This document shows positions 17,262 to 38,813 of a stretch of DNA of 64,000 nucleotides, piece after piece. The notes under the pieces are model-generated. The model was given only the letters and a program-made list of their open reading frames with translations, was not told the origin of the DNA and made no database searches. The position numbers and the translations under genes are program-made. The stretch spans positions 1 to 64,000 of the forward strand of contig NZ_VIRS01000014.1 in the NCBI RefSeq assembly GCF_006912135.1, read 5' to 3'. Source of the stretch: Cryptosporangium phraense (GTDB taxonomy: Bacteria > Actinomycetota > Actinomycetes > Mycobacteriales > Cryptosporangiaceae). The number at the start of each line of letters is the position of its first letter. Position 1 is the stretch's first letter.

Positions 17262-17383
17262 CTTGCCCTATACCACCGAATTACTCTCCGAAAACCTGCA
17301 AGGGAGTGCGGAGGGCGCCGACAGGTAGCGCGAAGGGTGCGGGCGGGGGCCCGACAGGGCCGGTACGACGGGGGAGCAGGGAC

Positions 17384-18580: not shown

Positions 18581-18613
18581 GCCGGGCCGGTTCGGTTACC
18601 GAACCGGCCCGGC
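18581..18613. terminator. bidirectional terminator hairpin
   Basis: Perfect 15-bp stem: GCCGGGCCGGTTCGG (18581-18595) and its complement (18599-18613) around a TTA loop. It lies between two convergent genes, so it can end both transcripts. Confidence 0.85.
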
Positions 18614-18637
18614 TCGAGCGTGACTCCCCGCTGCAGT

Positions 18638-19717: not shown

Positions 19718-20217
19718 CGCTGGATCGCCTCCTCGGGCAGGGCGCGGCGCAGCGCCGCCAGGCCCCGGGCGGTGTGACTCTTGACCGTGTTCACCGGGCA
19801 GCCGAGCGCGGCTGCCGTCTCGTCCACCGAGAGGTCTGCGTAGTAGCGGAGCACCAGCGCAGCGCGTTGTTTCGGGGGGAGGGCAGCCAGCGCGGCCCGC
19901 AGGGCCACGCCGGCCTCCGCGTCCGGCCGGGGCGCGGCCGCCTCCGGCACCCGGTCGACCAGCACCACCCGGCGGGCCTAGCCACCGCGTCTCTCGCTCA
20001 GGAAGACCCGGACCAGCACGGTCCGGGCGTAGGCGTCCCGGTTGGTCCGGATCCGGTCCCAGCTCAGGTACAGCTTGACCAGCGCGCTCTGGACGAGGTC
20101 GTCGGCGCGGTGCCCGTCCTGGCAGAGCACGTACGCGAGGCGCCGCAGCGCGGGCAACGCGGTGCGGACGTAGTCGTGGTAGTCGTCGGCCACGCTCGTA
20201 AGAGGTAGTCGGGTCAT
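19714..20217 (-). pseudogene. SigE-family (ECF) RNA polymerase sigma factor interrupted by in-frame TAG
   Basis: Reading from ATG 20217, codons 1-79 encode sigma region 2 (DYHDYVRTALPALRRLAYVL, DDLVQSALVKLYLSWDRI, FLSERRGG). Codon 80 is TAG (19980-19978). The same frame then continues without another stop into region 4 (LPPKQRAALVLRYYADLSVD, AALGCPVNTVKSHTARGL) to TGA at 19716-19714. The total of 168 codons including both stops is the normal SigE-family length. A TGG-to-TAG change is the simplest explanation. A split two-subunit sigma is conceivable but the downstream half lacks a ribosome site. Could also be a sequencing error. Confidence 0.85.
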
Positions 20218-20275
20218 CCACAGGTTGCAGTCGAGCGCGAAATGAGGGTGCGCCGTCCGCGTAGAATTCTGCGGC

Positions 20276-21652
<1,377 letters not shown>

Positions 21653-21667
21653 ACCCAAGGTTGAAGC

Positions 21668-22651
21668 ATGCCCGGCAATAGTCCGCGTCCGAACCGCCGC
21701 AAGGCAGGCACCAAGAAAGGCGCGGTCGTCGGATCGGGCGGTCAGCGGCGCAAGGGGCTGGAAGGCAAGGGCCCGACGCCCAAGGCGGTCGACCGGTTCA
21801 AGCACGTCGCGGCCCGGAAGGCGGCGGCGGCGCGCAAGGCCAACCCGCCCAAGAACGGCGACCGTCCCCGCACCGCGGCCGGCCGGCGCGCTCAGGGCAC
21901 CCGGGAAGGCGCCGAGTTGCTGGTCGGCCGCAACCCGGTGGTCGAGGCGCTGCGGGCCGAGATCCCGGCCAGCGCGCTGTTCATCGCCCAGGGCGTCGAC
22001 GTCGACGAGCGGATCAACGAGGCGGTGCAGACCGCGGGTGACCGCGGGCTGTCGATCCTCGAGGTCAGCCGCACCGAGCTCGACCGGATGACCGGCGGGG
22101 TCCTGCACCAGGGCATCGGCCTGAAGGTGCCGCCGTACTCGTATGCCGACCTGCCCGACGTGCTGTCCTCGGCGAGCGGCACCCCGCTGCTGGTCGCTCT
22201 CGACGGCGTCACCGACCCGCGCAACCTCGGTGCGGTCGTGCGCTCGGCCGCCGCCTTCGGCGCCTCCGGGGTCATCCTCCCGGAGCGGCGCGCGGCCGGG
22301 ATGACCGCCACGGCCTGGCGGACGTCGGCCGGCGCGGCGGCCCGTGTGCCGGTCGCTCGCGTCACGAACCTCACGCGGACGCTCCGGTCGCTGCAGGATC
22401 AGGGCTTCACGGTCCTGGGTCTGGACGCCGACGGGGACGTCGATTCCGACTCGCTGGACGTCGGCACCGACCCCGTGGTGATCGTGGTCGGCTCCGAGGG
22501 GCGCGGGCTGTCCCGGCTGGTGGGGGAGGCCTGCGATCAGCTGGTCTCGATCCCGATGACCAGCGACACCGAGTCGCTGAACGCGTCGGTCGCGGCCGCG
22601 GTGCTACTGGCGGACGTAGCGCGGCAGCGGCGTCAGGCTGCGCACGACTAG
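21668..22651 (+). CDS. rlmB: 23S rRNA (guanosine-2'-O-)-methyltransferase RlmB (SpoU/TrmH family)
   Basis: 327 residues. A Lys/Arg/Gly-rich, probably disordered N-terminal 75 residues typical of actinobacterial RlmB; then the substrate-binding domain ([13 protein letters not shown]) and the SPOUT trefoil-knot methyltransferase ([54 protein letters not shown]). Its 3' end overlaps the convergent VanZ gene by 48 bp. Confidence 0.93.
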
Positions 22652-23140
22652 CCCGAGCACGAGGCCGATCAGCAGCCCGTAGACGTTGTCGGCGACGTCG
22701 CGGGTGTCGCAGAAGCGGTTCAGCGGCAGCGTCCGCTGGGCCGCTTCGATGCCGATCGGGATGAGGACGCCGAAGGCGGCCAGCGTGAGTGGGATCTTGA
22801 CGTTCTTGCCGGTGAGCGCGGTGAAGATCCCGAGCGGGACGAACATCCAGACGTTGAGGCTGCGGCCGTTGATCGAGCCGGTGAACGGCCACGGCACCCA
22901 GTCGGGCTCCCAGCCGGCCCGGATGCAGCCCCAGCCCTGCCAGGGGTTGGCGAACGGCGCCGGGGCCGGCGTCAGCGTGACGATCGCGATGCCGGCCAGG
23001 CTCAGCAGGAGCCCGGCGGCGACGACCGGGTGGGTGCCGAGCTTGCGGACGATCGGCCGCCAGCCGACGGCGGCGATCAGGAGCACGACCACGGCGATCG
23101 GCACGATGCGTAGCAATTCACGGATGATGCTGCCGGCCAA
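22604..23140 (-). CDS. VanZ-like membrane protein
   Basis: 178 residues with about four membrane helices and the VanZ-family layout: a long extracytoplasmic loop ([10 protein letters not shown]), [43 protein letters not shown] start at 23140 with GGGGGAA upstream on this strand. Members are linked to glycopeptide tolerance or lipid transport in some bacteria, but most have no known role. Confidence 0.8.
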
Positions 23141-23163
23141 CGCTCAGTTCCCCCAGGTAAGCA

Positions 23164-23193
23164 GAAAGGCCCGCACCTCAGTGCAGGCCTTTC
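23164..23193 (-). terminator. hairpin terminator of the ABC ATPase gene
   Basis: GAAAGGCC/GGCCTTTC plus GCAC/GTGC stems with one C-A mismatch and a CTCA loop, 16 bp past the stop codon of the minus-strand ATPase gene. Confidence 0.7.
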
Positions 23194-23208
23194 CGACTTT
23201 ACTGTGCG

Positions 23209-24297
<1,089 letters not shown>

Positions 24298-24472
24298 CGT
24301 GCAGTCCTTTCCACCGGCAGGAACGTGCCGGACGATCCGAGTGGTGAGGACGGTGCACAAAGCTCCGCCTCCCGTGCCGGTAAACATATCTCCCGCGTGT
24401 CGGGAATGTTGCTTGAACCGGAACTATCGCTGGCGGTGGCCGGTCGGCATCGTTGGGTAATTAACACCACCA

Positions 24473-24484
24473 TGAATCGTTTCA
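24473..24484. promoter_or_regulatory. candidate LacI-family operator
   Basis: TGAATCGTTTCA, with TGAA/TTCA arms around a central CG, resembles the TGNNANCGNNNNCA-type sites of LacI/CcpA-family repressors. It lies in the 281-bp region between the divergent ATPase and LacI genes, and both could be controlled from it. Confidence 0.5.
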
Positions 24485-24578
24485 AAATGGCACGGACTGC
24501 GCGCCGATGACGTACATCACAAAGCCGCTCTGTTACCGGCGGGTATACGAAGGGCGCTGGATCGGTTAGGGTCCGCCC

Positions 24579-25655
24579 ATGGCTCAGCGTCCGCCCCGTC
24601 GGACCGCCACACTTGCGTCGCTGGCGGCGGAACTCGGCGTGTCCCGCACCACCGTCTCCAACGCCTACAACCGTCCCGACCAGCTGTCGCCGCAGCTCCG
24701 GCAGCGCGTCCTCGAAGCCGCCAAGCGGCTCGGGTACCCCGGGCCCGACCCGTTGGCGCGCTCGTTGCGCACCCGCCGGGCCGGAGCGATCGGCCTGCTG
24801 CTCACCGAGGCGTTGTCGTACGCCTTCCGCGACCCGGCCGCGGTCGAGTTCCTCGAGGGCCTCGCCCGCGAGTGCGAGGACGCCAAGACCGGCCTCCTGC
24901 TGGTCCCGGCCGTCCCCGGCGCCGGAACCGACCCGGCCCTGGCGGCGGCCGCCGCCGTCGACGGCTTCATCGTCTACTCCCTCCCGAACGACGACCCGCA
25001 TTTGGACGCTGCGCTGGCGCGCCCGGTGCCGACGGTGATCGTCGACGAGCCGCTCAATGCCGCCGGCGCGGACTACGTCGGCATCGACGACCGGGCGGCG
25101 GCGGCGAAGGCCGGCGCGCACCTGGCCGAGCTCGGCCACCGCCAGATCGGCATCATCTGCAGCCGGATCAGCTCGACCCGCGGTCCGGGCGGCCAGGCGA
25201 CGCCCGAGCGGCAGCGGTCGTCCCCGTACGACGTCGTTCGCCTGCGTCTGGACGGTCTGTTCGACGGCCTGCAGCTCGACCGGGACGAAGTTCCGGTCTG
25301 GGAGTGCTGGGAGAACACGCTCGACTCCGCGGCCGGCGCGGCCAAGGAGATGCTGGACGCGTACCCGTCGCTGACCGCGGTGGCCTGCACGACGGACGTC
25401 TTGGCCTTGGGGGCGATCCAGGCGGCCAAGTCTCTGGGCCGTTCCGTTCCTGACGACCTGTCGGTGACCGGCTTCGACGACATCCCCGACGCCGGGGCCA
25501 GCGGGCTGACGACCGTGCACCAGTCGCACGCCGAGAAGGGCCGCGCGGCCTGGCGTCTGCTCAGCCGCGACGACCGGGACGAGGTCCCGACCCAGCGCGC
25601 CACCATCCCGACGGAGCTGCGGATCCGCCAGACCACGGCCGTACCTTCTCGATAA
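24579..25655 (+). CDS. LacI-family transcriptional regulator
   Basis: 358 residues. N-terminal helix-turn-helix (LASLAAELGVSRTTVSNAYN) with a hinge (ALEAAKRLGY type), then a periplasmic-binding-protein-like sensor domain (AIGLLLTEAL, GIDDRAAAAKAGAHLAELGH, VACTTDVLALGAIQAAKSLG, GFDDIPDAGASGLTTV). Probably regulates sugar uptake, including the divergent ATPase. TAGGGT lies 6 nt upstream of the ATG, suggesting leaderless expression. Confidence 0.92.
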   Translation: MAQRPPRRTATLASLAAELGVSRTTVSNAYNRPDQLSPQLRQRVLEAAKRLGYPGPDPLARSLRTRRAGAIGLLLTEALSYAFRDPAAVEFLEGLARECEDAKTGLLLVPAVPGAGTDPALAAAAAVDGFIVYSLPNDDPHLDAALARPVPTVIVDEPLNAAGADYVGIDDRAAAAKAGAHLAELGHRQIGIICSRISSTRGPGGQATPERQRSSPYDVVRLRLDGLFDGLQLDRDEVPVWECWENTLDSAAGAAKEMLDAYPSLTAVACTTDVLALGAIQAAKSLGRSVPDDLSVTGFDDIPDAGASGLTTVHQSHAEKGRAAWRLLSRDDRDEVPTQRATIPTELRIRQTTAVPSR

Positions 25656-25706
25656 CTGACCGGAGGTCCCTGTTGGAGGGACCATCGGGTCTAGTTGGAT
25701 GGTCGG

Positions 25707-26276
25707 GTGCAGCCGGTGCGGACGAACAGCGACCTTTACCTCGCGATGTCCCGAGTGGGGTCCGCCGCGCGCAGACCGCTGGCGGAGTTCCTGCGGGCGT
25801 GGTGGTCGACGGGGTACGACTACGCGGACTCGAAGGCGTTGGAGCCGCTGGAGCTCGTGGGCTGGGTGAGAGATGCGTTGGTGGCGCCGGCGCCGCCGTA
25901 CGAGCGTTACTGGGCCAGGGAGGATCTGGATCTGGAGGCGCTGGACGGGTTCTCGGCCTGGTCCCGGGTGATCAGGGCGCAGGTCTGTGATCTGGAGGAG
26001 ATGGCGTCGGCCGGGGTGTTGCGCACCCAAGCGAGTTATCTGGGCCTGGACGCGCCCCGGCCGCCGGGTGCCGGGCGGCGGCCGACGCCGCCCCGCTGGT
26101 TCAACCTGGACGTGGCCAGTTACCTGGAGTCCGGCGTGATGGCGACGGTCGGCGGGTGGAGGCCGGAGTTCGAGGACGCGGTGGTGGACGTGGAGCCCCC
26201 GGAGCCGCTGGAGATCGGGGCGTTCGACTGGTCGGACCTGACGAGGTTCGCCATCGGTGGCCAGACGCACCAGTGA
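25707..26276 (+). CDS. hypothetical protein
   Basis: About 189 residues from GTG 25707 (TTG 25695 also possible). Rich in Trp and acidic residues, with no signal peptide, membrane helix or recognised domain. Ends 43 bp before the tRNA gene. High GC and codon use match the flanking genes, so it belongs to the chromosome rather than the island. Confidence 0.6.
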   Translation: MQPVRTNSDLYLAMSRVGSAARRPLAEFLRAWWSTGYDYADSKALEPLELVGWVRDALVAPAPPYERYWAREDLDLEALDGFSAWSRVIRAQVCDLEEMASAGVLRTQASYLGLDAPRPPGAGRRPTPPRWFNLDVASYLESGVMATVGGWRPEFEDAVVDVEPPEPLEIGAFDWSDLTRFAIGGQTHQ

Positions 26277-26319
26277 GGGTGCGGGTCGGTGGCGGGCAGC
26301 GGTTACGATCTGTGGCATT

Positions 26320-26392
26320 GCTGGTGTGGCGCAATTGGTAGCGCACCCGACTTGTAATCGGGCGGTTAGGGGTTCAAGTCCCCTCACCAGCT
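26320..26392 (+). tRNA. tRNA-Thr (anticodon TGT)
   Basis: Acceptor stem GCTGGTG pairs with CACCAGC (26385-26391); discriminator T at 26392. Anticodon stem CCCGA/TCGGG encloses the loop CTTGTAA, giving anticodon TGT. The T arm contains GGTTCAAGTCC. CCA is not encoded. Its 3' half is the left attachment site of an island. Confidence 0.95.
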
Positions 26393-26403
26393 CTCTTCTG
26401 ACC
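26350..26403 (+). repeat. left attachment repeat (attL) in tRNA-Thr
   Basis: 54-nt segment from the anticodon loop through the tRNA 3' end. It matches 30706-30759 at 49 of 54 positions, including 23 uninterrupted bases at the start (26350-26372). The tRNA copy is functional; the other lacks the 5' half. Confidence 0.88.
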
Positions 26404-26745
26404 TCTTGCTTTGCTGGCTCTGTGGGTCGTGTCGGCTGATCGAGTAGCCAAGCGGCGTCGGCGCATCTTCGCGGTTCCCCATGGTGCCTTCTCTGTCGAG
26501 GTGGCGGCCTCGCCGAGCATGGTGGGGGAGACCTGCGAGTAGGTGCTGAGTGTCAGGGCGATCTAGGAGTGACGAGCAGCTCCATGACAATGCGGGCCGG
26601 GACACCGTGCGCGACAGGCAGCGTCGCCGCGGTGTGCCGCAGGTCGTGGAGCCGGGTCGGACGGACCTTGGCCTTCTCTAGGAGCGCCTCGAATGCCCGC
26701 GCGTCGGCGCGATGGTCGATCGGGTGTGCCGCGGAAGCAGACGCC
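26374..26745 (-). pseudogene. tyrosine recombinase (integrase), C-terminal remnant
   Basis: On the minus strand one frame encodes AHPIDHRADARAFEALLEKA and RLHDLRHTAATL (the HxxR box), then HGVPARIVMELL. A one-base loss shifts the frame, and the next frame carries a TAG followed by IALTLSTYSQVSPTMLGEAA, which holds the catalytic Tyr box. The reading continues to a TGA inside the tRNA T loop (26376-26374), the normal end of a tRNA-adjacent integrase. The N-terminal domains are missing. Inactive by at least a frameshift, a stop and a truncation. Confidence 0.82.
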
Positions 26746-26871
26746 CGGGACGGACATCCAGAGGGACATGACCCAGCGTTCGCGAGCGATGAGACCGACT
26801 CGGGCGAGGTCGTTAGCGCGATATCCGTTGATCGTGAATCCTGCCTCCCAGAGGTGATCAGGGGCCGTCAC
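26740..26871 (-). pseudogene. small unrecognised gene, fused to the integrase remnant
   Basis: GTG at 26871 overlaps the stop of the preceding remnant (GTGA). It encodes TAPDHLWEAGFTINGYRAND and IARERWVMSLWMSVPG, after which the similarity to a coherent protein ends at the integrase junction. I do not recognise the family. The coupling suggests an accessory gene of the original element. Confidence 0.4.
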
Positions 26872-27115
26872 TCGGCGCCGGGCGTCTTCCATTCGGGTCG
26901 CTGAGGGATCGTGAGGTCACCGCGGTACCGCTCAGGGATCTCGTACCGGGCAGTCGCTTCGTCAGGGGTTATGCCGTCGAGCGCCGGCCAAGTCGGCGGG
27001 TGTGGCGCCGAAATGCAGCGCCCACTGTCCGGCCATCACGGCATTCAGTTCGGCCTCTTCGATGGCCGTGCGATTGACCGCCACGGTAGCCAGGTAGCGC
27101 ACGCGGATGCCGATC
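26868..27115 (-). pseudogene. unrecognised small gene with frameshift
   Basis: One frame reads LHWIGIRVRYLATVAVNRTA and MAGQWALHFGATPADLA; after about one base of shift a second frame reads LDGITPDEATARYEIPERYR and ends RPEWKTPGAE-stop. Together they look like a single small protein of an integrative element broken by a frameshift. No family recognised. Confidence 0.4.
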
Positions 27116-27126
27116 CAGTGCAGCGG

Positions 27127-27411
27127 GTCACGACGTACATCTCGTGGGAGATCGCCGAGGGGACGCGATTGCTGGTGGAGGAGATCCCGCACCTGCACGG
27201 CATCCACGGTGTGCTGGAAGTGCGCGGACAGACGATGACCCGCCTCCGCGAGGAGGTCACCGCCCGCATGCCCCGAGCCGAGGAAGCGCGCTATCTCCAG
27301 ATCCCGTCCGGAGTTCCGGTACTCGATTCCCTCTACACCAGCGTCGACCAGCACGGAATTGCGTACGTGCTGACCCGCTTCGTCTTGCGCGCCGATCTCG
27401 GCGCCCTCTGA
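27127..27411 (+). pseudogene. GntR-family regulator, UTRA domain remnant
   Basis: Codes for TTYISWEIAEGTRLL, MTRLREEVTARMPRAEEARY and IPSGVPVLDSLYTSVDQHGI, the pattern of the UTRA ligand domain of GntR/HutC-type regulators (KorSA-like regulators of integrative elements belong here). The winged-helix DNA-binding domain is absent, so it is a fragment. It is open upstream to 26911 but that extension is antisense to the remnant gene above. Confidence 0.55.
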
Positions 27412-27449
27412 TACGACGCACCCGTTGAGTAGGTTCGCAATTCGAGGCC

Positions 27450-28439
27450 TTACTCCGCCGCACTGCCCCAGACGGCTCCGTACGCTAGGCCACGCTGGAG
27501 ATCCGAGAAGTCCAAGGCGATGCCACCGAATCTGTCAACTTCGACCGCTGGTGCTTCGGATAGCCTGTTACGAATCTCTCGATGTGCCACTCCCCGAATT
27601 TCGCGAATTTCGATCGGTAATTGGTTTGTTCGGAACTGAACTCTGAGCCGGAAGACATCACACTCCTTGAGCGGAGAGAATAGGAATTGAGGCGCGAAGC
27701 CCCGCCAAGAGGGCATGCTGTACATAAGGCCCAGCGCATGACTTTCGCCGATTCGGATGAGGCGAGTGAGTTTCAACACGACACTGGTTCTAGTTGGAGA
27801 CTCGGTCGTCTTTCGGATAACTGAACCACCGTAGAGCGTGTCAATATCGATCCCATCGCTCGACTCAACGGGCGTGCTAACGGATAACATCATATACTTC
27901 ATCTCGTCCGACTCCGCTAGGATGCTGCGATGCTCGATAATCCTCGGGCTTTCGGTATCGAGATGGATCGAAGCGCTCATCCAACGCGTTCTCCACCAGC
28001 CCAAGTCGGCAGGTATCGTACCCAAGTTTAGATGATCCAATTTGCGCGAGATTTCCTCTGCAAACTGCTCAGGAGCGATTCCTCGGAGGTCGATCCAGGC
28101 TTGATCATCTGAGATTCCTGGAACGGGTGTGTCGTCGAAACGTGCAGCGAGCACACGAGGGCGCGGCGCTTGAAATTCGCCTCGGGATGCTGCGGTCAAC
28201 TCTGCGATTGTGTGGCTGGACTGGACGTATTCGGCGGACCCAAATACAATTACGACTGCGGCCTGGCTGCCGTAGATTCGGACGAGTTCATCGCTTAGAT
28301 TCTCGCCCCAAATTTCAGCCAATTGATGACGGTCGAAGAAGCACCGGACCCCTAGTCGACCGAGTTCAGTCGCTACACGTTCGACGTATTCGCGCTGCGC
28401 ACCTGCATATGAGAGCGCCACCTCCCAGTCGAGACTCAT
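27450..28439 (-). CDS. TIR-domain protein with unknown C-terminal domain (putative defence effector)
   Basis: 329 residues from ATG 28439 (GGAGAGGA 8 nt ahead). Residues 4-137 form a TIR domain: WEVALSYAGAQREYVERVA (strand A/helix A), VRCFFDRHQLAEIWGENL, VVIVFGSAEYVQSSHTIAE with the putative catalytic Glu80, and a final WIDLRG. Residues 138-329 form a beta-rich domain (QFLFSPLKECDVFRLRVQF) that I do not recognise. Bacterial TIR proteins commonly degrade NAD+ or make cyclic ADP-ribose signals in anti-phage defence. No partner sensor (Ago, ThsA, Pycsar/CBASS) is adjacent. Low GC relative to the window, inside the tRNA-Thr island. Confidence 0.82.
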   Translation of the reverse strand: MSLDWEVALSYAGAQREYVERVATELGRLGVRCFFDRHQLAEIWGENLSDELVRIYGSQAAVVIVFGSAEYVQSSHTIAELTAASRGEFQAPRPRVLAARFDDTPVPGISDDQAWIDLRGIAPEQFAEEISRKLDHLNLGTIPADLGWWRTRWMSASIHLDTESPRIIEHRSILAESDEMKYMMLSVSTPVESSDGIDIDTLYGGSVIRKTTESPTRTSVVLKLTRLIRIGESHALGLMYSMPSWRGFAPQFLFSPLKECDVFRLRVQFRTNQLPIEIREIRGVAHREIRNRLSEAPAVEVDRFGGIALDFSDLQRGLAYGAVWGSAAE

Positions 28440-28750
28440 TTTACTATTCCTCTCCGCTACGGACGGTATGGCGGTGGGTTGAGGTTCTATCGCGTCTATA
28501 AATTTCAATTCGCACACAACTCTGCTTGGGTCAGTCCCCTTGTCTACCTGCATTCGGCATCCACAAAGCCCCTACGATCTACACATTCCTCCGGCGATTA
28601 CTTGAGCACTTCGGTTGGGAGTGAACGCGAACTATCTATAGCATCGACGCGTACCGCAAGACTGCTGGCATGAGTTGACCGCAGCCCTACGCAAGCCCCA
28701 CCCATGCGAGCTTCCAACCCCTAGCATCGCTTTTAGCAGCGACGGACGGG
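28440..28750. other. gene-free stretch inside the island
   Basis: 311 bp of comparatively AT-rich sequence between the TIR gene and the methyltransferase fragment. It holds the TIR promoter region and ribosome site; no RNA gene or repeat was seen. Confidence 0.4.
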
Positions 28751-29149
28751 GTGCCGTGCGTGACGTCGACGAGAGCGACTGTCGACCACTACGAACGGTT
28801 GGCAGCAAGCCATGACCACAACTGGACGCACAGCGGCGTGTTCCTGGACTGGATGACCAGCCAGATCGTCTCCGCAGCCTCGATCGGTGCGACCGACCGC
28901 GTCGCCGACGTCGGTTCCGGTACCGGCTTGTTCGCGAGACACATCGCGGACCAGGTCCACCCTGCCCAGCCGATCCTCTGCGTAGACACGTCGCGGCCGA
29001 TGCTCACCCAGATACCCACATCGCCCGAGCCCCAGCCCGTAGTGGCGCCCGCCGAAGAGATGGCGGAGTGGGTGACGGCGGGAGGCGGAGCCGGGACCGC
29101 CGGCGAACTCGACGTCATCCTCCTCAAGGAGTCGGTCCACACCCGGTAG
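28751..29149 (+). pseudogene. SAM-dependent methyltransferase, truncated
   Basis: Only the N-terminal half of a class I methyltransferase: TVDHYERLAASHDHNW, motif I VADVGSGTGLFARHIADQ, acidic strand-2 end LCVDTS, and motif IV region LDVILLKESVH, then an immediate stop. The expected further 100 or more residues are missing, and the sequence switches directly to a P-loop gene fragment on the other strand. Higher GC than the TIR gene. Confidence 0.7.
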
Positions 29150-29343
29150 CGGTACGGGCCGAGGCCTTCGTTCGACAGGCGGGCGCCGGTGGCGACGCTC
29201 GTGAGGACCGTGGTCTTGCCGCTGCCGGGGCCGCCGATCACGAGGACGTTCGCGGTTGAGGTCGCGAGGCGGGCGAGCTCTACGTACTCAGCACGAAGAC
29301 CGGCCTGTCGGCAGAACAGGTGGTTGGTGCCGGCCGCGCCTGA
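29150..29343 (-). pseudogene. P-loop NTPase fragment
   Basis: Minus-strand reading: AEYVELARLATSTANVLVIG then Walker A GGPGSGKTTVL and ARLSNEGLGPYR, after which it runs into the antisense of the methyltransferase. No Walker B and a TGA at the 5' end of the open stretch. A fragment of an ATPase or kinase (family undetermined). Confidence 0.6.
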
Positions 29344-29413
29344 CCCAGGTCGTCGTCAGCCGTCGGACGTCCACTCGCGCCCAACGATGATCTTGCAACT
29401 GGAAACTCGGAGG

Positions 29414-30397
29414 TCAGACACCAAGTCGGAAGTCCTCAAGTTTCTGCCGGATGACCATGGCGGGATCCTGGCCGTGCTTCCGATTCTCCAGCATTTGCAT
29501 TAGATCGTCGTCGTTAAATACCAATATCATTTTGCCGTGTAACATCCACTGTTCACGGCAGGTGTGCATCGCTCCCTTGTCGGCCGAATTTCGTGTCAAA
29601 ATGAAGGCGAACAGGCCTGTTTTGTGTACCGAGAGATAGTTTGCTATTTGCAGGATATGTTCCTTCTTTACGTAGCCGCAGAAATTCTTTGCATCAACCA
29701 CCAAAAAGTCGGCCCGATAGTGTTCTCGCATAAACTGCCAAAATCCGGCGGTAGCATAGTTCGGGATCGCGAAATCGCGACGATTGACGCGAGGGATATC
29801 CGCACTTTCGGAAATAGGCTTGTTTAGGGGTGGTGTGAACAGGTACTCAAGAACTTCGCCGCAGAATCTCTGGTACAAGGGCCAGTGGTCACGACCACAT
29901 TTGATGCGGGCCAACCGGCGCTGCATCTCTTCTGCCTGCGAGACTGATCGTGGGGCGGTTTGCTCGGCGCTGAAGAACTCATGTGCGTCGGATAGGAATC
30001 CGGCCTTGGCGGCAATCCTGGTGATCTCGTCTTGATCCCAAAGGACTATGTTGGATGCGCGGAGTCGTTGAACGAAGGTGGCCGACAATGATCCTGGAAT
30101 TGCAAGAACGACCGTTAGTGGGGTCTCTGCCGCGCCATCCTCTTCGAGTGCCGATCGATATTTATCCAGCCTCCAAATAAGCTCACGGATTCGCCTGTCG
30201 GTCTGAGGGGTGCTCCCTCGGACCTCGACGAGAGTAAGTGTTCCGGCTCGCTCGAAGGCGATATCTACCCTCATTCGGAGCGGTTTTGGAAGTCGGACTT
30301 CAGAGGCTAGTTCGACATCGAAAGCCCGAGGAATGATCTTCTGAAGCAACTGCGTCAGTTGCAGCTCTGAGTACCGCGGCGCCGGCTCCTCTGGCAT
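29414..30397 (-). CDS. putative nuclease with two PD-(D/E)XK-like domains
   Basis: 327 residues. The N-terminal domain has RVDIAFE (Asp45) and LTLVEVRGS (Glu58-x-Arg60), a PD-(D/E)XK pattern with Arg in place of Lys. After a helical middle, the C-terminal domain has EVLEYLF (Glu181), RRDFAIPN (Asp208) and ADFLVVDAKNF (Asp235-x-Lys237), an intact restriction-endonuclease-like core, with conserved HILQIANYLS helices. Such folds occur in restriction enzymes and abortive-infection nucleases. No methyltransferase partner is intact nearby (only a fragment). Low GC; sits just inside attR. ATG 30397 chosen as the first in-frame start. Confidence 0.72.
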   Translation of the reverse strand: MPEEPAPRYSELQLTQLLQKIIPRAFDVELASEVRLPKPLRMRVDIAFERAGTLTLVEVRGSTPQTDRRIRELIWRLDKYRSALEEDGAAETPLTVVLAIPGSLSATFVQRLRASNIVLWDQDEITRIAAKAGFLSDAHEFFSAEQTAPRSVSQAEEMQRRLARIKCGRDHWPLYQRFCGEVLEYLFTPPLNKPISESADIPRVNRRDFAIPNYATAGFWQFMREHYRADFLVVDAKNFCGYVKKEHILQIANYLSVHKTGLFAFILTRNSADKGAMHTCREQWMLHGKMILVFNDDDLMQMLENRKHGQDPAMVIRQKLEDFRLGV

Positions 30398-30819
30398 ACG
30401 TGTCCATCCTGTTTAGATCGGAACTCGACCCTATTGCATCGGTCGGACTCTGCGCACGAGTAGTGTGCCAGCGGAGCGCAGTCGGGGGCTCGGTCAGCTC
30501 TGCGCCGACAGCACCTGCCTCGTTCAGGTTCGCCACATACGGGACCGGTCCCTAGGCCGGCGGCCGTTCTGTCACACGGAGGTCACGCCAACCCTGCAAC
30601 GGCTCCGGACGTCGACGGACAGCCTCGGTCGCTGCAACCCCTCTGGCCAGCCCCGCGCCGGATGACAGAGGTCGACGCCGGACGGCAAAGTACGCGTCAC
30701 ACCGCACTTGTAATCGGGCGGTTAGGGGATCAAGCCCCCTCACCAGATCTGGTCTGACCAGGGCCTTCTGCGTTGCGCGCAGTACGTCTCCGTGGCGGCG
30801 GTTGGCTTAGAATCACTTC
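30398..30819. other. gene-free region containing attR
   Basis: 422 bp with no convincing gene. It contains the right attachment repeat and, at its end, a TAGAAT box (30808-30813) serving the DUF433 gene. Short open frames here lack coding character. Confidence 0.5.
30706..30759 (+). repeat. right attachment repeat (attR), partial tRNA-Thr copy
   Basis: Matches 26350-26403 at 49 of 54 positions: anticodon loop, anticodon 3' stem, variable loop and T arm of tRNA-Thr, with changes in the T arm (GATCAAGCC for GTTCAAGTC) and after the acceptor. The sequence before it does not resemble the tRNA 5' half, so it is not a functional tRNA. Confidence 0.85.
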
Positions 30820-31050
30820 ATGGCCCTCGACAGGATCACTGCGGAGCCCGGCAAGCTCGAGGGTCGGCCTTGTATCCGGGGTCTACGGATGTCGGTCCAG
30901 TCGGTTGTCCGGCTTGTTGCCGCCGGTTGGGCGTTCGACGAGATCCTGGCGAACTACCCGGACCTCGAACACGAGGACATCAGGCAGGCTCTTGAGTGCG
31001 CGGCTGCTGCGACTGACGCGCACGTGCTCTCGCTTCGAGAGCCGGCGTGA
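30820..31050 (+). CDS. DUF433 antitoxin (VapB45-like)
   Basis: 76 residues. ITAEPGKLEGRPCIRGLRM, VQSVVRLVAAGWAFDEILAN and YPDLEHEDIRQALECAA are the characteristic DUF433 HTH-like antitoxin motifs. Overlaps the toxin start (GTGA). A TAGAAT -10 box lies 6 nt before the ATG without a ribosome site. DUF433 proteins neutralise DUF5615 PIN-like nucleases and repress their operon. Confidence 0.88.
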   Translation: MALDRITAEPGKLEGRPCIRGLRMSVQSVVRLVAAGWAFDEILANYPDLEHEDIRQALECAAAATDAHVLSLREPA

Positions 31051-31415
31051 AGTTTCTGATCGACGAGAACCTTTCGTCGCAGCTCGCCGAATTTCTCCTG
31101 AAGTCGGGCCATGATGCTGTGCACGCTCGCGACCTGGACGCGGCGGGAGCCTCCGACGCCGACGTGATGACCCTGGCCGCTGTTAGTGACGCGTGATTGT
31201 CTCCGCGGATCGGGATTTTGGCGCCTTGCTCGCGTATGGCCGCGCCACGGAACCCGTCAGTGATCCTTATTCGAGCGCTCATCGGTCGACGCCCATCTGA
31301 ACTGGCCGCGATTCTGATCGCGAACCTCAACGAAGTCGCGGCAGACCTTGAACATGGCGCCGTCGTGGCATTCACCAAGACTGAGATCCGGGTGCGTCGG
31401 CTCCCGTTGCGGTGA
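31047..31415 (+). pseudogene. DUF5615 PIN-like toxin, frameshifted
   Basis: GTG 31047 starts KFLIDENLSSQLAEFLLKSG and ARDLDAAGASDADVM, with the N-terminal PIN Asp in LIDEN, but a TGA follows at 31194. The protein continues in another frame as VIVSADRDFGALLAYGRA (second acidic motif) and then back in the first frame as PSVILIRALIGRRPSELA to TGA near 31415. A loss of about four bases in a CG-rich run and a compensating single-base change would explain it. Total length fits the family (about 120 residues). The nuclease is therefore predicted inactive, while the antitoxin is intact. Confidence 0.8.
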
Positions 31416-31618: not shown

Positions 31619-32053
31619 GTGCCAAACCGCGAAGAGGCAGCAGCCACCGCCCAGCGGCTCCGGATCGTCTTCGGGCGGCTCCGCCGCCGACTCCAAGACG
31701 CCTCCGCGGTCAGCGGCCTCAGCGCCCCCCAAGCCTCCGCCCTGGCGCGCCTCGCTCTCAACGAACCGGCCTCCGCGAGCCAACTCGCCGGCGCCGAGCG
31801 CGTCCGTCCGCAGTCGATGGCCAAGACCATCGCCGCGCTGCACGACCTCGGCCTCATCCGCCGCGAGGCGGACCCCGACGACGGCCGCCAGAAGTGGATC
31901 TACCTCACCGACGAAGGCCGCGCCGCCGCCCAGGGGGCCCGCAGCCACCGCGAGGAGTGGCTCACCGATGCGATCGCCCAGCGCTTCACCGACGACGAGC
32001 GCCACCTGATCGACCAGGCCCTCACCCTGCTGGAAAGGGTCGTCGACCAATGA
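31619..32053 (+). CDS. MarR-family transcriptional regulator
   Basis: 144 residues, winged helix. LSAPQASALARLALNEPASASQLAGAE leads to the recognition helix, RVRPQSMAKTIAALHDLGLI, then the wing READPDDGRQKWIYLTDEG, and C-terminal dimerisation helices. GTG start directly after its presumed operator. ATGA overlap with the MFS gene; it most likely controls that drug exporter in response to a ligand. Confidence 0.93.
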   Translation: MPNREEAAATAQRLRIVFGRLRRRLQDASAVSGLSAPQASALARLALNEPASASQLAGAERVRPQSMAKTIAALHDLGLIRREADPDDGRQKWIYLTDEGRAAAQGARSHREEWLTDAIAQRFTDDERHLIDQALTLLERVVDQ

Positions 32054-33411
32054 CGCTCCGAGAGAGACTCCGCCCGACCAACACCGGCTTCGACCGCAAA
32101 CTCATCGCCCCACTCGTCGCCGGCGCCGTCCTCAACCCCATCAACTCCACGATCATCTCGGTCGCGCTCATCCCGATCGGAGTAGCGCTCGGCGAACCAC
32201 CCAGGGCAACCGCCTGGCTCATCTCGTCGCTCTACCTCGCGACCGCCGTCGGGCAGCCCGTCGTCGGCCGGCTGATCGACGTCTACGGGCCGCGTCGACT
32301 GTTCCTCCCGGCGACCGCCCTCGTCGGGCTGGCCGGCGTCATCGGCGCGCTCGCGCCGAACCTCGGCGTGCTGATCGCGGCCCGGGTCATCCTGGGGTTC
32401 GGCACCTGCGCCGGCTACCCCGCCGCGATGCGCCTGATCCGCGACGAGGCCGACCGCACCGGCCAGGGCAGCCCGGCCGGGATCCTGACGATCCTGGCCA
32501 TCTCGACCCAGACCATCGCGGTCATCGGGCCCCCGCTCGGCGGCCTGCTGATCGGTCTCGGCGGATGGCGCACCACGCTCGCGATCAACGTCCCGATCGC
32601 CGCGGCCGCGTTCCTCCTCGGCCAGAGACGCTTCCCGAAAGACACCCGGAGCAACGGCAGACCCAACCTCGACTACACCGGCATCGTGCTCTTCGCGACC
32701 ACCCTCGTCGCCCTGCTCCTGTTCCTGATGAACCCCCGCCCCACCAACGCCTACCTCCTCGCCATCGCCGCGGCCGCCGCCACCGGTTTCGCGGTCCGCG
32801 AACTCCGCCACCCCGACCCGTTCATCGACCTCCGCGTCCTCGGCGGCAACGTCCCGCTCCTGCTCACCTACGGACGCGCCCTGCTGGCGTACATCGTCGG
32901 CTACAGCTTCCTGTTCGGGTTCACGCAGTGGCTCGAGGAAGGTCGCGGCCTCGCCGCCGGCCACGCGGGCCTCGTCCTGCTGCCGATGTTCGCGACGGCC
33001 ATCGTCGTCTCGGCCGTCACCGGACGCCGGGAGGAGCTCCGCGGAAAGCTGATCGTCGCGTCGGCCGCGCAGGTCCTGGCCTGCGCCTTGCTGCTCACGC
33101 TGCACCCGCACAGCCCGATCTGGCTGGTCGTCGGGATCGTGCTGATCTTCGGCCTCCCGCAGGGCCTCAACAGCATCGCGCTGCAGAACGCGGTCTACCG
33201 CCAGGCCAACCCGGCCGACATCGGCGCGTCCGCCGGCCTGCTCCGCACGTTCGGCTACCTCGGCGCGATCACGTCCTCGGCCGCGCTCGGCGGCTTCTAC
33301 GGAGCGCGCGCCGACACGGTCGGCCTGCACCACCTCGCGGTGTTCCTGGTCGCGACCGGCGCCGCGTACCTCCTCGTCAACGTCTTCGACCGATCCCTGA
33401 GGAAGCGATGA
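32050..33411 (+). CDS. MFS drug transporter (DHA2-like)
   Basis: 453 residues with about 12-14 membrane helices. NPINSTIISVALIPIG in helix 1, the loop 2-3 motif GRLIDVYGPRRLFL, and a PPLGGLLI helix-5 motif are typical of proton-driven drug exporters. Translationally coupled at both ends (ATGA) with the MarR regulator and the isochorismatase-like gene. Confidence 0.9.
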   Translation: MTLRERLRPTNTGFDRKLIAPLVAGAVLNPINSTIISVALIPIGVALGEPPRATAWLISSLYLATAVGQPVVGRLIDVYGPRRLFLPATALVGLAGVIGALAPNLGVLIAARVILGFGTCAGYPAAMRLIRDEADRTGQGSPAGILTILAISTQTIAVIGPPLGGLLIGLGGWRTTLAINVPIAAAAFLLGQRRFPKDTRSNGRPNLDYTGIVLFATTLVALLLFLMNPRPTNAYLLAIAAAAATGFAVRELRHPDPFIDLRVLGGNVPLLLTYGRALLAYIVGYSFLFGFTQWLEEGRGLAAGHAGLVLLPMFATAIVVSAVTGRREELRGKLIVASAAQVLACALLLTLHPHSPIWLVVGIVLIFGLPQGLNSIALQNAVYRQANPADIGASAGLLRTFGYLGAITSSAALGGFYGARADTVGLHHLAVFLVATGAAYLLVNVFDRSLRKR

Positions 33412-33962
33412 ACCGCACCGCGCTGCTCGTCATGGACTACCAGGTCGGCCTGCTGCACCGCGTCGCCGATCCTGGCGGGCTCCTGGCCCGCGTCAACTCC
33501 GCTGTCGCGGAGACCCGTCGCCACGGCGGCCACGTCGGTTGGGTCCGCGTCGCGTTCACCGACGACGATTTCGACGCGATCCCGCCGACCAGCGTCATGG
33601 CCCGCAACGGGCGCCGCCCCGAGTTCCACGTCGACGCCCCGACGACCCGGATCGACCCCACCCTCGATCAGCAGCCCCACGACATCGCCGTCCGCAAGAC
33701 CCGCGTCGGCGCCTTCACCACGACCGACCTCGATCACCAGCTCCGGGCCCGCGGCGTCACGAGGCTGGTGCTCGCCGGCATCAGCACCAGCGGTGTCGTG
33801 CTCAGCACCGTCCGCGAGGCGATGGACCGCGACTACGAGATCGTCGTCCTCAGCGACGCCTGCGCCGACCCCGACCCGGACACCCACGCGTTCCTCACCG
33901 AGAAACTCTTCCCGAGGTCCGCGACCGTGACCGATTCCCTCCCGCCGTCCCGACCGGCCTAG
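33408..33962 (+). CDS. isochorismatase-like hydrolase lacking the catalytic Cys
   Basis: 184 residues, Rossmann-like isochorismatase fold. Asp in LLVMDYQVG and Lys in AVRKTRVGAF of the triad are present, but the nucleophile motif reads LAGISTSGVVLSTVREA, with Val where cysteine hydrolases have Cys. Non-cysteine members such as EntB also lack it, so another chemistry or a binding role is possible. Last gene of the MarR-MFS operon; 4-bp convergent overlap with the GNAT gene. Confidence 0.82.
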   Translation: MNRTALLVMDYQVGLLHRVADPGGLLARVNSAVAETRRHGGHVGWVRVAFTDDDFDAIPPTSVMARNGRRPEFHVDAPTTRIDPTLDQQPHDIAVRKTRVGAFTTTDLDHQLRARGVTRLVLAGISTSGVVLSTVREAMDRDYEIVVLSDACADPDPDTHAFLTEKLFPRSATVTDSLPPSRPA

Positions 33963-34516
33963 TCGTCCGTCAGGACGGCGATCTCGGACGCGGTCAGATC
34001 CCGGTCTGCGTACAGCAACCGAATCGCGCGCGGGTCGGGATTTCCGGCATCCGGGCCGCGCCAGACCGGGCGCAGCCCGGCGCGCTCGGTCGCGCGCTGG
34101 GAGCGCAGATTCCCCTCCAGCAGGTACGCGGTCATCGGCAGGTCCGGCCGCAGCTCGGCCGCGGCCGCAACCGCCTCGCGGACGATCTCCTGCGCCAGCC
34201 CCCGCCCCCAGAAGGCCGGCCGCAGCCGATACCCCAGGTTCCAGGCGACGTCGTACCGGACGAAACACCCACCGATGCCGACGAGCTCACCACCGGGCGT
34301 GCGCGCGACCCACATCCCCAACCCGTCGTGCGCCCACCCCGACCGCCACCGGACCACCATCCCGAGCGTCTGCTCCACGGACCCGTGCCGGGCCAGCGGA
34401 TCGGCCGCCCACACCTGCGGATCGGCGTACAGCTCGTACAGGTCCGGGACGTCGGACTCGCCGGGCACGGTCAGCGCCAGCCGCGCGGTCGAGACCACCC
34501 GGAAGCTTGTCACCAT
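33959..34516 (-). CDS. GNAT-family acetyltransferase (RimJ/RimL type)
   Basis: 185 residues. STARLALTVPGESDVPDLYE at the N-terminus, VGIGGCFVRYDVAWNLGYRL, and the acetyl-CoA loop FWGRGLAQEIVREAVAAAA, then EGNLRSQRATERAGLRPV. The RimJ/RimL-like pattern suggests acetylation of an amino group of a protein or small molecule. ATG at 34516, only 6 bp from the divergent GNAT gene. Confidence 0.85.
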   Translation of the reverse strand: MVTSFRVVSTARLALTVPGESDVPDLYELYADPQVWAADPLARHGSVEQTLGMVVRWRSGWAHDGLGMWVARTPGGELVGIGGCFVRYDVAWNLGYRLRPAFWGRGLAQEIVREAVAAAAELRPDLPMTAYLLEGNLRSQRATERAGLRPVWRGPDAGNPDPRAIRLLYADRDLTASEIAVLTDD

Positions 34517-34522
34517 GGCCCC

Positions 34523-35413
34523 ATGACCTACCAGGTGCGCCGGATCGAGCCGAACGACTTCCGGGAGCTCAAGCGTCTGCGGCTCGAGGCGCTGAAGAAC
34601 TCCCCGCTGGCGTTCGTCGAACAGTACGACGACGCGGTCGTGCTGCCGGACAGCGCCTGGCGCGACCGCGCGTCCACGCAGATCGGGTTCGCCGCCGTCG
34701 CCGGCGGCCGGTTCGTCGGCATGGCCGGTGTCTTCCGCGAGGCGGAGGTCATCCACCACGTGTCCGCGATGCTCGTCGGCGTCTACGTGACGCCGGCGTT
34801 CCGCGGAGGTGCCTACGGCACCGCGCAGGCGGTGACGGCCGCGGCCGTCACCTTCGCGTTCGAACACCTGCATGCGGACGTCGTCCGGCTGTTCGTTCTC
34901 GACCTCAACGAACGGGCCAAGGCGTTCTACCGGCGAGCCGGCTTCACCGAGACCGGCCACACGATCCGCTATCCCCCGGACCCGGCCTACCTCGAACGGG
35001 AGATGGCGCTCACCGAGCGCATGCCCCCCGAACAGCCGTCGTCTCATCTAGAGCCTCAGAGCGACTCTCTGGCTACAGTGCGCTCCATGGAGCAAGTGGA
35101 CGAAGAAACGATCGACGACGCGCTCGACGTTCTCGAATACCTGAGCGAGTGGCGGCTCGCACCCCAGCGCTGGGAGAGCGTCCAGGCCATCCTGGACCGC
35201 ATGGACATCGCGCTCCGGACCGCCGACGGGCCGGCCCTCCGGCGCGCGGTCGCCGAGCTCGAGCTCAGCGGGCCGGTCCGCGCCAACCGGATCGGCACCG
35301 CCGAGATCATCACCGCGCCCTCGCGAATCGTGGACCGGCAGAACACCCTGGTTCACGTCCTGACCGTCAACAAAGGACGGAAAAACGGCGATGCAGAACC
35401 GCTTTCTTCCTGA
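34523..35413 (+). CDS. GNAT acetyltransferase reading in frame into a CATRA-associated small protein
   Basis: Residues 1-170 form a GNAT domain: VRRIEPNDFRELKRLRLEAL, a beta4 MLVGVYVTPAFRGGAYG acetyl-CoA loop, and FVLDLNERAKAFYRRAGF. The frame has no stop after the domain (YLEREMALTERM); it continues through a 22-residue linker into the whole CATRA-associated protein, giving a 296-residue product. Either this is a genuine fusion or the GNAT lost its stop codon. The downstream unit has its own start and -10 box, so both products may be made. Confidence 0.7.
   Translation: MTYQVRRIEPNDFRELKRLRLEALKNSPLAFVEQYDDAVVLPDSAWRDRASTQIGFAAVAGGRFVGMAGVFREAEVIHHVSAMLVGVYVTPAFRGGAYGTAQAVTAAAVTFAFEHLHADVVRLFVLDLNERAKAFYRRAGFTETGHTIRYPPDPAYLEREMALTERMPPEQPSSHLEPQSDSLATVRSMEQVDEETIDDALDVLEYLSEWRLAPQRWESVQAILDRMDIALRTADGPALRRAVAELELSGPVRANRIGTAEIITAPSRIVDRQNTLVHVLTVNKGRKNGDAEPLSS
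35087..35413 (+). CDS. CATRA system-associated small protein (CASP-type)
   Basis: 108 residues from ATG 35087: DALDVLEYLSEWRLAPQRWE, VQAILDRMDIALRTAD, LRRAVAELELSGPVRANRIG, then a conserved NTLVHVL. This is the pattern I know from small proteins annotated as CATRA-system associated and found beside CATRA proteins in actinobacterial NTP-dependent conflict systems. A TACAGT -10 box (35074-35079) lies 7 nt before the ATG, so an independent leaderless message is likely. Overlaps the CATRA gene by 23 bp. Function in the system is unknown. Confidence 0.72.
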   Translation: MEQVDEETIDDALDVLEYLSEWRLAPQRWESVQAILDRMDIALRTADGPALRRAVAELELSGPVRANRIGTAEIITAPSRIVDRQNTLVHVLTVNKGRKNGDAEPLSS

Positions 35414-37097
35414 GCAGGAGCTCGTCGCCCACCTCTACGCCCCGCTCGACGGCCCCCACGCCGACACGGCCTACCAGCAGATCAGCGCGATCTGGAAGCG
35501 GTGCCGATCCGAGCTGAACATGACGCTCTCCATCCCCGGCACCGACCTGCCGACCGACTTACCGGAGAAGTTCACCCGCGAAGGCAGCGCCCTCGCCGGT
35601 CTGCAGGACCGCGTCGCCGACTACCAGGCGATCGTCCGGCACGAGCACGAGGTGCTCAACCTGTCCCTGGTCTTCGCCACGCCGGTCGCCGACCACGACC
35701 GCAAACCCCGGATCGGGGCGGCCGCGCCGCTGGGCTGGCGTGAATACGCCCGCTGGTGGCGGCAACTGACCGCGAACGGCCTCGACGCACTGCTCGGCTC
35801 GGTCGTGATTTTCCAGGCCAAGCGTCCGGAGGAGAGCACCGACTACGTCAGCTGGGGCGCCGACGCCGGCGCGGTGCTGCCGCCCGGCCCGACCGACGAA
35901 CCCGGCTGGCGTCAACGCCCCACCAACGCCGGCGAGTTCGCGCTCTGGGAGGTCGCTCCGGCCGACGACGACGGCGGCGACCGCCGGCTCGTCGTGCTCG
36001 CCGAGCCCGGCCGGGACCGCCAGCTGTCCGACTTCACCTGGAGCTCCGGTGACGTCCGGCTCCCGCCGCTGGCCCGCTACCTGATGCACGCGGCGAAGCT
36101 CCGGTTCCACTCCCGCGTCCGCGGTGACGGCAGCGCCCTGACCGACCTGCGCCGCCGCGTCGAAACGCGCGTCGGCCGCTTGACCGACGGCCTCAGCCGT
36201 CCCGACGCGGATCTCCGCGACGAGGCCGCGGACCTCGTCCGCGACGAGGCGATCCTCCGTGCGACGCAGGCCGAGCTCCGGAACATGCGCCGCTCGGTCG
36301 AGATCGCCGAGGACAACATGCGCAACGCGATCGACGACCTGCTGCCCTCGGACGCCCGGCTCGTCCGCTGGCTGAAACCGCAACTGGGCGACGACATCGA
36401 GTTCGTCAACATCGCCCGCGAGCAGGCGGAGGGCCTGCGCGGGCTGATCCGGGACGCGGGCCTGCTCGACCGCCGCGCCGAGCCACCCGCCGACTATTCG
36501 GTACTGACCCCGCCCGAGCCGACGACCCACCAATTGTCGGACCGCGTCGAGCAGCGCATGGGCTTCGGCATCGACGTCGTCGGCTACAGCACCCGGCCGA
36601 CGCCCCGTCAGGTCGAGATCCAGCGGCGCATCGCCACGCTGGTGGAGCAGGTCGTCAGCGACCTCGGCGTCCCGCTCGGCGCCACCGACCGGCAGGACGC
36701 CGGCGACGGCATGATGGTCGTCCTGCCGGCCGGAATCGAGGTCCCGACGGCTCTACCCCGCTTACTGCTCGGCTGGCGGTCCCGCCTGGCCGCCGACAAC
36801 GACCAGCACGAGGACCGGCTGCGGATGCGGCTCGCGGTGTCGATGGGTGGCTTCTCCCGGGCGGCGATCGGCTACGCCGGAGGAACGATCATCGAGATCG
36901 GACGTCTCCTCGACAGCGACGAGCTGCGCAGTGCGCTGGCCGAGGACGAGAGCCTGGAGCTGGCCGCGCTGCTCTCCGACCCGCTGTATCAGCAGGTCGT
37001 GGGCGAGCGCTTCGACGGTCTTCAGCCGGAGGAATTCGAGCACGCCGAGATCCAGAAGAAGCAGTACCGCCGTGCGGCCTGGCTCTGGCGCGGCTGA
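35391..37097 (+). CDS. CATRA (caspase/TPR-repeat-associated) conflict-system protein with cyclase-like C-terminus
   Basis: 568 residues; ATG 35391 with AAAGGACGG ahead. N-terminal CATRA-N-like domain (residues 1-240: LVAHLYAPLDGP, ISAIWKRCRSELNMTL, VVIFQAKRP), a long helical/coiled-coil middle (250-360), and a C-terminal domain (about 388-565) resembling class III nucleotide cyclases: FGIDVVGYS (Asp395) and DRQDAGDGMMVVLP (Asp439) match the two metal-binding Asp positions; the usual VNLAARL motif is replaced by IIEIGRLLD (Glu502, Arg505). Family knowledge: CATRA proteins accompany caspase-like peptidases with TPRs in actinobacterial conflict systems. No caspase gene is seen in the window. Confidence 0.75.
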   Translation: MQNRFLPEQELVAHLYAPLDGPHADTAYQQISAIWKRCRSELNMTLSIPGTDLPTDLPEKFTREGSALAGLQDRVADYQAIVRHEHEVLNLSLVFATPVADHDRKPRIGAAAPLGWREYARWWRQLTANGLDALLGSVVIFQAKRPEESTDYVSWGADAGAVLPPGPTDEPGWRQRPTNAGEFALWEVAPADDDGGDRRLVVLAEPGRDRQLSDFTWSSGDVRLPPLARYLMHAAKLRFHSRVRGDGSALTDLRRRVETRVGRLTDGLSRPDADLRDEAADLVRDEAILRATQAELRNMRRSVEIAEDNMRNAIDDLLPSDARLVRWLKPQLGDDIEFVNIAREQAEGLRGLIRDAGLLDRRAEPPADYSVLTPPEPTTHQLSDRVEQRMGFGIDVVGYSTRPTPRQVEIQRRIATLVEQVVSDLGVPLGATDRQDAGDGMMVVLPAGIEVPTALPRLLLGWRSRLAADNDQHEDRLRMRLAVSMGGFSRAAIGYAGGTIIEIGRLLDSDELRSALAEDESLELAALLSDPLYQQVVGERFDGLQPEEFEHAEIQKKQYRRAAWLWRG

Positions 37098-37171: not shown

Positions 37172-37405
37172 ATGCCTCTTGATGCGCAGCCTCCGGGCCG
37201 GCGGGGCACCGTCGGTCATCCGTATAGTCCGCTGACTTTGCGCCTCGTTCTGGCCGGGTTCGGCCTCGTAGCGTCGGTGATTGGTGCTGCGGTGTTGTTC
37301 GGCATCGGCCAGGCGGTGCCGGCGTGGGTGTTGGTGGCGCTGGCCGTCGTAGCGCTGATCGACCTGGCCGTGATCCAGACCCGCCGCCGAGCCCGCCGCA
37401 CCTAG
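37172..37405 (+). CDS. DUF6343-like small two-helix membrane protein
   Basis: 77 residues. A short polar N-terminus, then LTLRLVLAGFGLVASVIGAA and a second helix AWVLVALAVVALIDLAVI, ending in RRRARRT. The layout matches the DUF6343 family of actinobacterial small membrane proteins. Function unknown. Overlaps the convergent nuclease gene by 4 bp. Confidence 0.65.
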   Translation: MPLDAQPPGRRGTVGHPYSPLTLRLVLAGFGLVASVIGAAVLFGIGQAVPAWVLVALAVVALIDLAVIQTRRRARRT

Positions 37406-38499: not shown

Positions 38500-38813
38500 T
38501 GTTCCGCCCGCCCCCAACCGTCAGTGAGACCATCCGCGGTCCAGTCACCGTAGGGGAGGCTGCTCGTCAAGCGGCTCCCCCATTGAGCCCTCATTTGATG
38601 GACGTTTCCTCTACCACGAGTCTGAGCAGAGCTCTCCTGCCCCCAGTTTCATTGGGCCCAGAGGCGATTAGTGGCCATCGGCCCTGGGGGCGCTGGGTCA
38701 GACGCTGGCCGGTCTCTGATCGAAAGCAGCGCAACTCGGCAGATCTCGGTTCCGCTGGGCCGCATCAAAATGTAATCTGCGTAGTTCCGTCCAGCCTCGC
38801 AGAGGGATGACTA
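38500..38813. other. intergenic region between divergent defence-like genes
   Basis: 314 bp, divergent promoters expected. It contains an AGAGGG ribosome site for the gene at 38814. No RNA, repeat or small gene recognised. GC content begins to fall here. Confidence 0.4.

Follow-up and report, generated by a model that had tools for sequence, protein, structure and literature searches.

A Probable Decayed Integrative Element with Defence-Like Cargo at a tRNA-Thr Gene of Cryptosporangium phraense

Introduction

How did a short run of low-GC genes come to lie between a tRNA-Thr gene and a partial second copy of that gene in Cryptosporangium phraense? The locus is part of a 64,000-nt stretch (the window) of contig NZ_VIRS01000014.1, positions 1-64,000. 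An earlier reading of the sequence alone (the sequence-only reading) had regarded the interval as a defence island that outlived its mobility genes. The integrative island, the degenerate integrase, the foreign composition and the whole-looking TIR and nuclease-type genes in this proposal were recovered in our analysis, whereas defence activity was not established. We consider it highly probable that the interval is a decayed integrative element at tRNA-Thr, a genomic island resembling a cis-mobilizable element (CIME), with defence-like cargo.

Results

An Integrase Relic between Two tRNA-Thr Copies

The argument concerns the following features, one of which is shared with a congener (G002).

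26320-26393 (+): intact tRNA-Thr(UGU) (ARAGORN), with the attL-side copy in its 3' part
26374-26867 (-): tyrosine integrase relic, catalytic-domain pieces in two frames with an internal stop (frames, Pfam)
27450-28439 (-): TIR-domain protein of 329 aa (TIR_2, 2.5e-16)
29414-30397 (-): nuclease-like protein of 327 aa with a putative C-terminal PD-(D/E)XK-type domain (D...DAKN; PDC-M36A, 6.5e-15)
30570-30699 (+): distal element arm adjoining the partial tRNA copy, common to G002 (sequence comparison)
30700-30759 (+): partial tRNA-Thr copy, attR side (alignment to the tRNA 3' part)

The tRNA-Thr (anticodon TGT) was the sole tRNA found by ARAGORN in the window. Its 3' end is present as a direct repeat at both borders of the island, with 53 of 60 positions identical (88% over 60 nt) between 26344-26403 and 30700-30759. 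The 54-bp repeat claimed earlier was counted again on this alignment and agreed exactly (49/54 matches, 23 uninterrupted, between 26350-26403 and 30706-30759). A 40-mer of the repeat, searched with at most 3 mismatches, occurred at two sites in 64 kb and in none of 100 shuffles, and the local alignment score of the repeat was 96, while 20 shuffles reached at most 36. No tRNA 5' half was found upstream of the distal copy (local alignment score 12 of 68). Directly right of this copy the window reads CTGACCAGG, and the same bases stand directly right of the tRNA in two congeners (G001 and G002); this match is consistent with insertion, though it covers nine bases only.

An integrase lies at one island border, as a relic only. 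The piece between stops at 26556-26867 (-) matched Pfam Phage_integrase at 7e-6 (26.4 bits; cut-off 27.1), and NCBIfam gave a XerA-type match at 0.0078 only. The frames, read by eye, contain a frame change followed by an internal stop, and the N-terminal part is gone. The last open piece stops at 26374-26376, inside the T loop of the tRNA, as had been described for a degenerate integrase at attL. The island has lost its own integration gene while both att sites are retained. Among 60 other relatives no intact close relative of the integrase was found, the sole match at 1e-12 being in G030 (52% identity); in its own genome the relic matched only itself at this threshold.

Composition was also that of foreign DNA. 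The GC content was 0.601 in 26404-30699 versus 0.710 in 16400-26300 on the left, so that the low-GC cargo noticed previously is real, and the suggested check of codon adaptation pointed the same way. The codon adaptation index (CAI) was 0.270 for the TIR gene and 0.261 for the nuclease-like gene, compared with 0.67-0.75 in four neighbouring genes that were not part of the codon reference set (MarR, MFS, isochorismatase-like, and CATRA). The codon usage of both cargo genes is strongly foreign.

The island is absent from relatives that carry its target. In two of three congeners (G001 and G003), the tRNA-Thr is present and the left flank is the same (80-92% identity), and no second tRNA-Thr copy and no island were found in the 19-kb stretches studied. 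The distance from the tRNA to a ybdK-like gene (at about 40.3 kb in the window) is 3.4 and 5.0 kb in these genomes versus 13.9 kb in the window. The third congener, G002, has other partial copies, and different DNA follows the tRNA in each of the three. The same gene content fixed in relatives, which would have spoken against the sequence-only reading, was therefore not observed.

The TIR Gene

The TIR gene is open along its full length. The TIR domain occupies residues 7-126 (Pfam TIR_2, 2.5e-16), and Glu80, which we take to be the NADase glutamate, aligns with the Glu of a G290 relative (36% identity over 132 residues). With a TIR fold and a conserved Glu, the protein is a predicted TIR NADase, and in these two features it resembles TIR-domain immune effectors. 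Unlike them, it has a C-terminal beta domain otherwise found with helix-turn-helix (HTH) proteins, and none of the partner genes of named TIR systems was seen. This C-terminal half resembles another protein encoded in the window's own genome (G000:C4) and, at 29%, a protein of G163, a genome of the same class. The G163 protein reads identically to a Streptomyces cyaneofuscatus protein, which places the host in the class of Streptomyces. The C-terminal half was also found at six loci among 80 genome-contig candidates (five Streptomyces, one Streptosporangiaceae). An HTH_31 domain was detected in the G163 protein by Pfam, and the six genome-contig loci look alike by eye. In the structure model, which is reliable only beyond about residue 145 (its TIR region scores below 50), the domain is all-beta, common to actinobacterial HTH proteins.

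An M1 aminopeptidase identity for the C-terminal domain was considered and rejected. Its Foldseek matches were mostly to these enzymes at an E-value of 1e-5, but with a template modelling (TM) score of about 0.3 and a root mean square deviation above 5 A, the likeness to the N-terminal region of M1 aminopeptidases is a weak resemblance only. A sequence search of the PDB with the TIR protein returned seven uninformative matches (best 0.47).

The Nuclease-Like Gene

The nuclease-like gene is likewise open along its full length, and the earlier statement that the intact genes are TIR- and nuclease-like holds for both; genes of these two types are frequently employed against phages. The PADLOC profile PDC-M36A matched the protein at 6.5e-15, over positions 288-452 only of its 457. 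The window protein and all 10 distinct relatives aligned with it have the D...[DE]xKN motif, and, by this conserved D...(D/E)xK signature, the C-terminal domain is a predicted PD-(D/E)XK nuclease. It thus resembles PDC-M36A in its C-terminal nuclease domain and differs from it in that the N-terminal half of the profile is unmatched, the corresponding half of the window protein aligning instead with Mrr_cat in plasmid-borne relatives. Pfam placed Mrr_cat N-terminally in four of five submitted relatives, all four plasmid-borne (1.7e-11 to 1.5e-4), and found no match to it in the chromosomal G414 relative or in the window protein itself. A fold prediction of the protein alone was unusable (predicted local distance difference test score 44), and the PDB sequence search gave no match.

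Relatives of this nuclease are sparse. None was found among 51 genome-contig pattern candidates, 5 viral-contig candidates, or phages. The 26 plasmid records obtained all had less than 60% identity, and none covered 80% of the query. Distant matches occurred in 2 of 60 other relatives and, across the phylum, in 2 of 395 further genomes (at most 5 candidates scored per genome), and the PDC-M36A profile matched in 6 of these 395. The family is too sparse for a selection test. Our literature search found no paper describing PDC-M36 or PDC-M36A.

On a Rhizobium sophoriradicis plasmid (L064, 1-3549), a relative of the nuclease adjoins two TIR genes, an HhH-GPD gene and a 7-cyano-7-deazaguanine synthase gene, possibly a defence cluster.

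Possible Retention of the Open Genes

The distal copy differs from the tRNA by 3 changes in 43 positions, giving a neutral divergence of about 7% (binomial interval about 1.5-19%) on the supposition that it was initially identical to the tRNA. In simulations with substitutions only, the probability that neither gene acquired a stop was 0.0065 at 7% divergence and 0.075 at 3.5%; with assumed indels, it was 0.00075 at 3.5% and 0.045 at 1.5%. The open state of the TIR and nuclease-like genes leans towards selection or later arrival, short of proof.

tRNA-Thr(UGU) as a Recurrent Integration Site

Partial copies of tRNA-Thr(UGU) were found in 4 of 11 other genomes in which the stretch studied includes this tRNA (G002, G014, G020, and G006). 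At the threshold used, none was seen in G001, G003, G005, G007, G008, G015, or G019. The count was made on stretches taken from 13 genomes, out of 20 others listed, and leaves aside G004, whose contig ends with no tRNA seen, and G012, whose match is a tRNA-Ala. Several partial copies begin at CTTGTAA of the anticodon loop. G014, G006 and G020 represent three other families. Between the tRNA-Thr and its copy, G014 carries a PIN gene and no integrase in about 1.0 kb (L037 rc 2200-3345), G006 a Fic gene in 2.5 kb, and G020 an integrase piece and an XRE-type gene in 4.4 kb. The tRNA-Thr(UGU) site is a recurrent integration hotspot.

In G002, one tRNA-Thr is accompanied by four partial copies and a different integrase open reading frame (ORF; Phage_integrase, 4.2e-22). 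This genome (L032/L033/L072) carries the counterpart of window 18983-26403 in inverted form, between counterparts of the window up to 18627 and from 44198 that keep their orientation. Two partial copies of like orientation stand on one side of the inversion, and the two on its other side point the opposite way. The inversion would be explained most simply by recombination between tRNA-Thr copies. G002 also shares the distal part of the island: 30570-30759 is about 80% identical over 190 nt, and the arm part 30570-30705 likewise about 80%. A search of 249 genomes of the order, with 3 candidates scored per genome, gave a single match inside the arm beyond G002, of 31 nt in G497. A McrA-type HNH gene beside one G002 partial copy was considered on the basis of a motif and set aside, Pfam giving no match for the three ORFs tested.

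In this order, tRNA-Thr(UGU) might even serve as a cargo platform, at which a family of elements with a conserved arm carries small exchangeable genes of defence or toxin type, and, once the integrases are dead, leftover tRNA-Thr fragments undergo homologous recombination, swap cargo and flip chromosome segments as in G002; we regard this extension as unlikely.

Other Genes of the Interval and Its Right Flank

The remaining cargo and the neighbouring genes are as follows.

26911-27411 (+): ORF with a UTRA ligand-binding domain, fragment of a GntR-type regulator (Pfam UTRA, 1.1e-11, residues 63-162)
28751-29149 (+): truncated methyltransferase-like fragment (Methyltransf_25, 5.6e-5, below its cut-off)
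28789-29241 (-): ORF overlapping the preceding one and beginning with a P-loop-like GGPGSGKTT (AAA matches weak, best E 0.021)
30820-31200: DUF433 gene (4.3e-21), then another ORF, right of the distal copy
35391-37097 (+): gene with CATRA-N (8.5e-64) and CATRA-C (1.5e-26)
37402-40211: second low-GC patch, with an HSDR_N gene (8.9e-12) and a 465-aa protein

No DNA-binding domain was detected by Pfam in the UTRA ORF, and the ORF at 28789-29241 is probably an ATPase fragment. Because methyltransferase-like, ATPase-like and UTRA fragments all occur in the interval, it is a mosaic relic and not one compact defence operon.

To the right of the island, the ORF after the DUF433 gene presumably has a DUF5615-like look, and the two may form a toxin-antitoxin pair. 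A further C-terminal part of the CATRA protein resembles, by eye, what we take to be a nucleotide-cyclase domain, with no match obtained. In the second low-GC patch, the CAI was 0.681 for the HSDR_N gene and 0.334 for the 465-aa protein. The latter had no match in Pfam, NCBIfam or PADLOC, and its RNELVH motif is, we assume, of HEPN type. No tRNA-Thr copy was found beside this patch.

Discussion

Alternative Explanations

Several results weigh against a decayed element of these borders and this cargo. The sequence-only reading had proposed an empty site joining 26349 to 30706; the island is indeed absent from G001 and G003, yet an allele with this exact joint was found in neither. Nor does either genome have a match to window 30.8-34.3 kb next to its tRNA, so the right border is unproven by an exact empty site and could lie elsewhere. 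The Pfam score of the integrase relic is a little under the cut-off. PADLOC called no TIR system for the island (best 0.0027) and gave the nuclease-like protein a candidate family only, and the N-terminal site of this protein reads VEVR where relatives show E/D-x-K and may therefore be inactive. At 1.5% divergence both genes stay stop-free with P 0.32, and the divergence estimate hangs on three changes; the TIR and nuclease genes may have arrived after the insertion.

We give some credence, well short of even, to a larger mobile unit or variable block that would extend over 26.4-40.3 kb, from the tRNA-Thr to the ybdK-like gene, and contain 26.4-30.7 kb as a single accreted piece. The short tRNA-ybdK distances in G001 and G003 argue for it, as do the further conflict-type genes in this block (CATRA, 35391-37097; HSDR_N, 37402-38517), the composition of 38814-40211 (GC 0.582, CAI 0.334), and an HSDR_N fragment in G002 that is 84-91% identical to 37402-38517 and adjoins a partial tRNA-Thr copy. 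However, a third tRNA-Thr copy is absent from the 64-kb window, and the GC content of 31619-37097 is host-like (0.712). That the interval is the remnant of a prophage or, specifically, of an actinomycete integrative conjugative element (AICE) seems to us doubtful. AICE tyrosine integrases target mostly tRNA 3' ends, and the pSE211-type integrase group uses tRNA-Thr in actinobacteria, according to PMC3218068. Against this, the ORF searches with Pfam, NCBIfam and PADLOC, which did not extend to PHROGs, recognised no gene for replication, transfer or phage structure; in Pfam, the island ORFs had no replication or TraB/FtsK-type transfer genes, as would also be so for a decayed AICE. Finally, local rearrangement could have duplicated a tRNA fragment, with unrelated low-GC genes acquired separately, and the mosaic of fragments and the rearrangement at these repeats in G002 would suit such an origin. 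But the integrase relic ends within the tRNA, G002, G014, G020 and G006 show their repeats in the same arrangement, and the distal arm is common to G002, which makes this origin very improbable.

Origin and Relation to Known Elements

We thus favour a decayed integrative element. The anticodon/3' part of tRNA-Thr(UGU) would have been the entry point of an element with a tyrosine integrase. The tRNA gene (26320-26393) would have stayed complete through a 3' end that the element brought along, and the original 3' end would now lie 4.36 kb off (30700-30759). Later, the integrase and other genes would have decayed while the TIR and nuclease-like genes remained open, leaving a relic of the cis-mobilizable type with att sites kept and its own integrase lost. 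The TIR protein would cleave NAD+ after a trigger sensed via its C-terminal domain, and the nuclease-like protein would cut DNA; an anti-phage role of both genes may be supposed.

In PMC5704250, CIMEs are described as having lost integration and transfer genes and kept both att sites. The window island is similar in its retained att sites and lost integrase, and in the tandem accretion at one target gene seen in G002; it differs in that the loss of transfer genes is assumed and no mobilising partner was identified. With pSE211-type AICEs and tRNA-borne islands, as described in PMC3218068, it shares a tyrosine integrase, the tRNA-Thr target and an actinobacterial host. Unlike them, it is 4.4 kb long, with no tra/rep genes recognised and with a broken integrase. 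The same paper reports one AICE that excised although its integrase is truncated; immobility is therefore not proven by the loss of this gene. The searched text of PMC10482375 does not mention tRNA.

Conclusions

The island fits a known sort of relic, and current models are unchanged by it. Leftover att copies flank a chromosomal inversion in G002. Two little-described proteins are brought to notice, a TIR protein with an HTH-associated C-terminal beta domain and a putative nuclease with a PDC-M36A-type C-terminal domain. In C. phraense, a repeatedly used target very probably holds a decayed integrative island whose sole whole-looking genes are of defence type.

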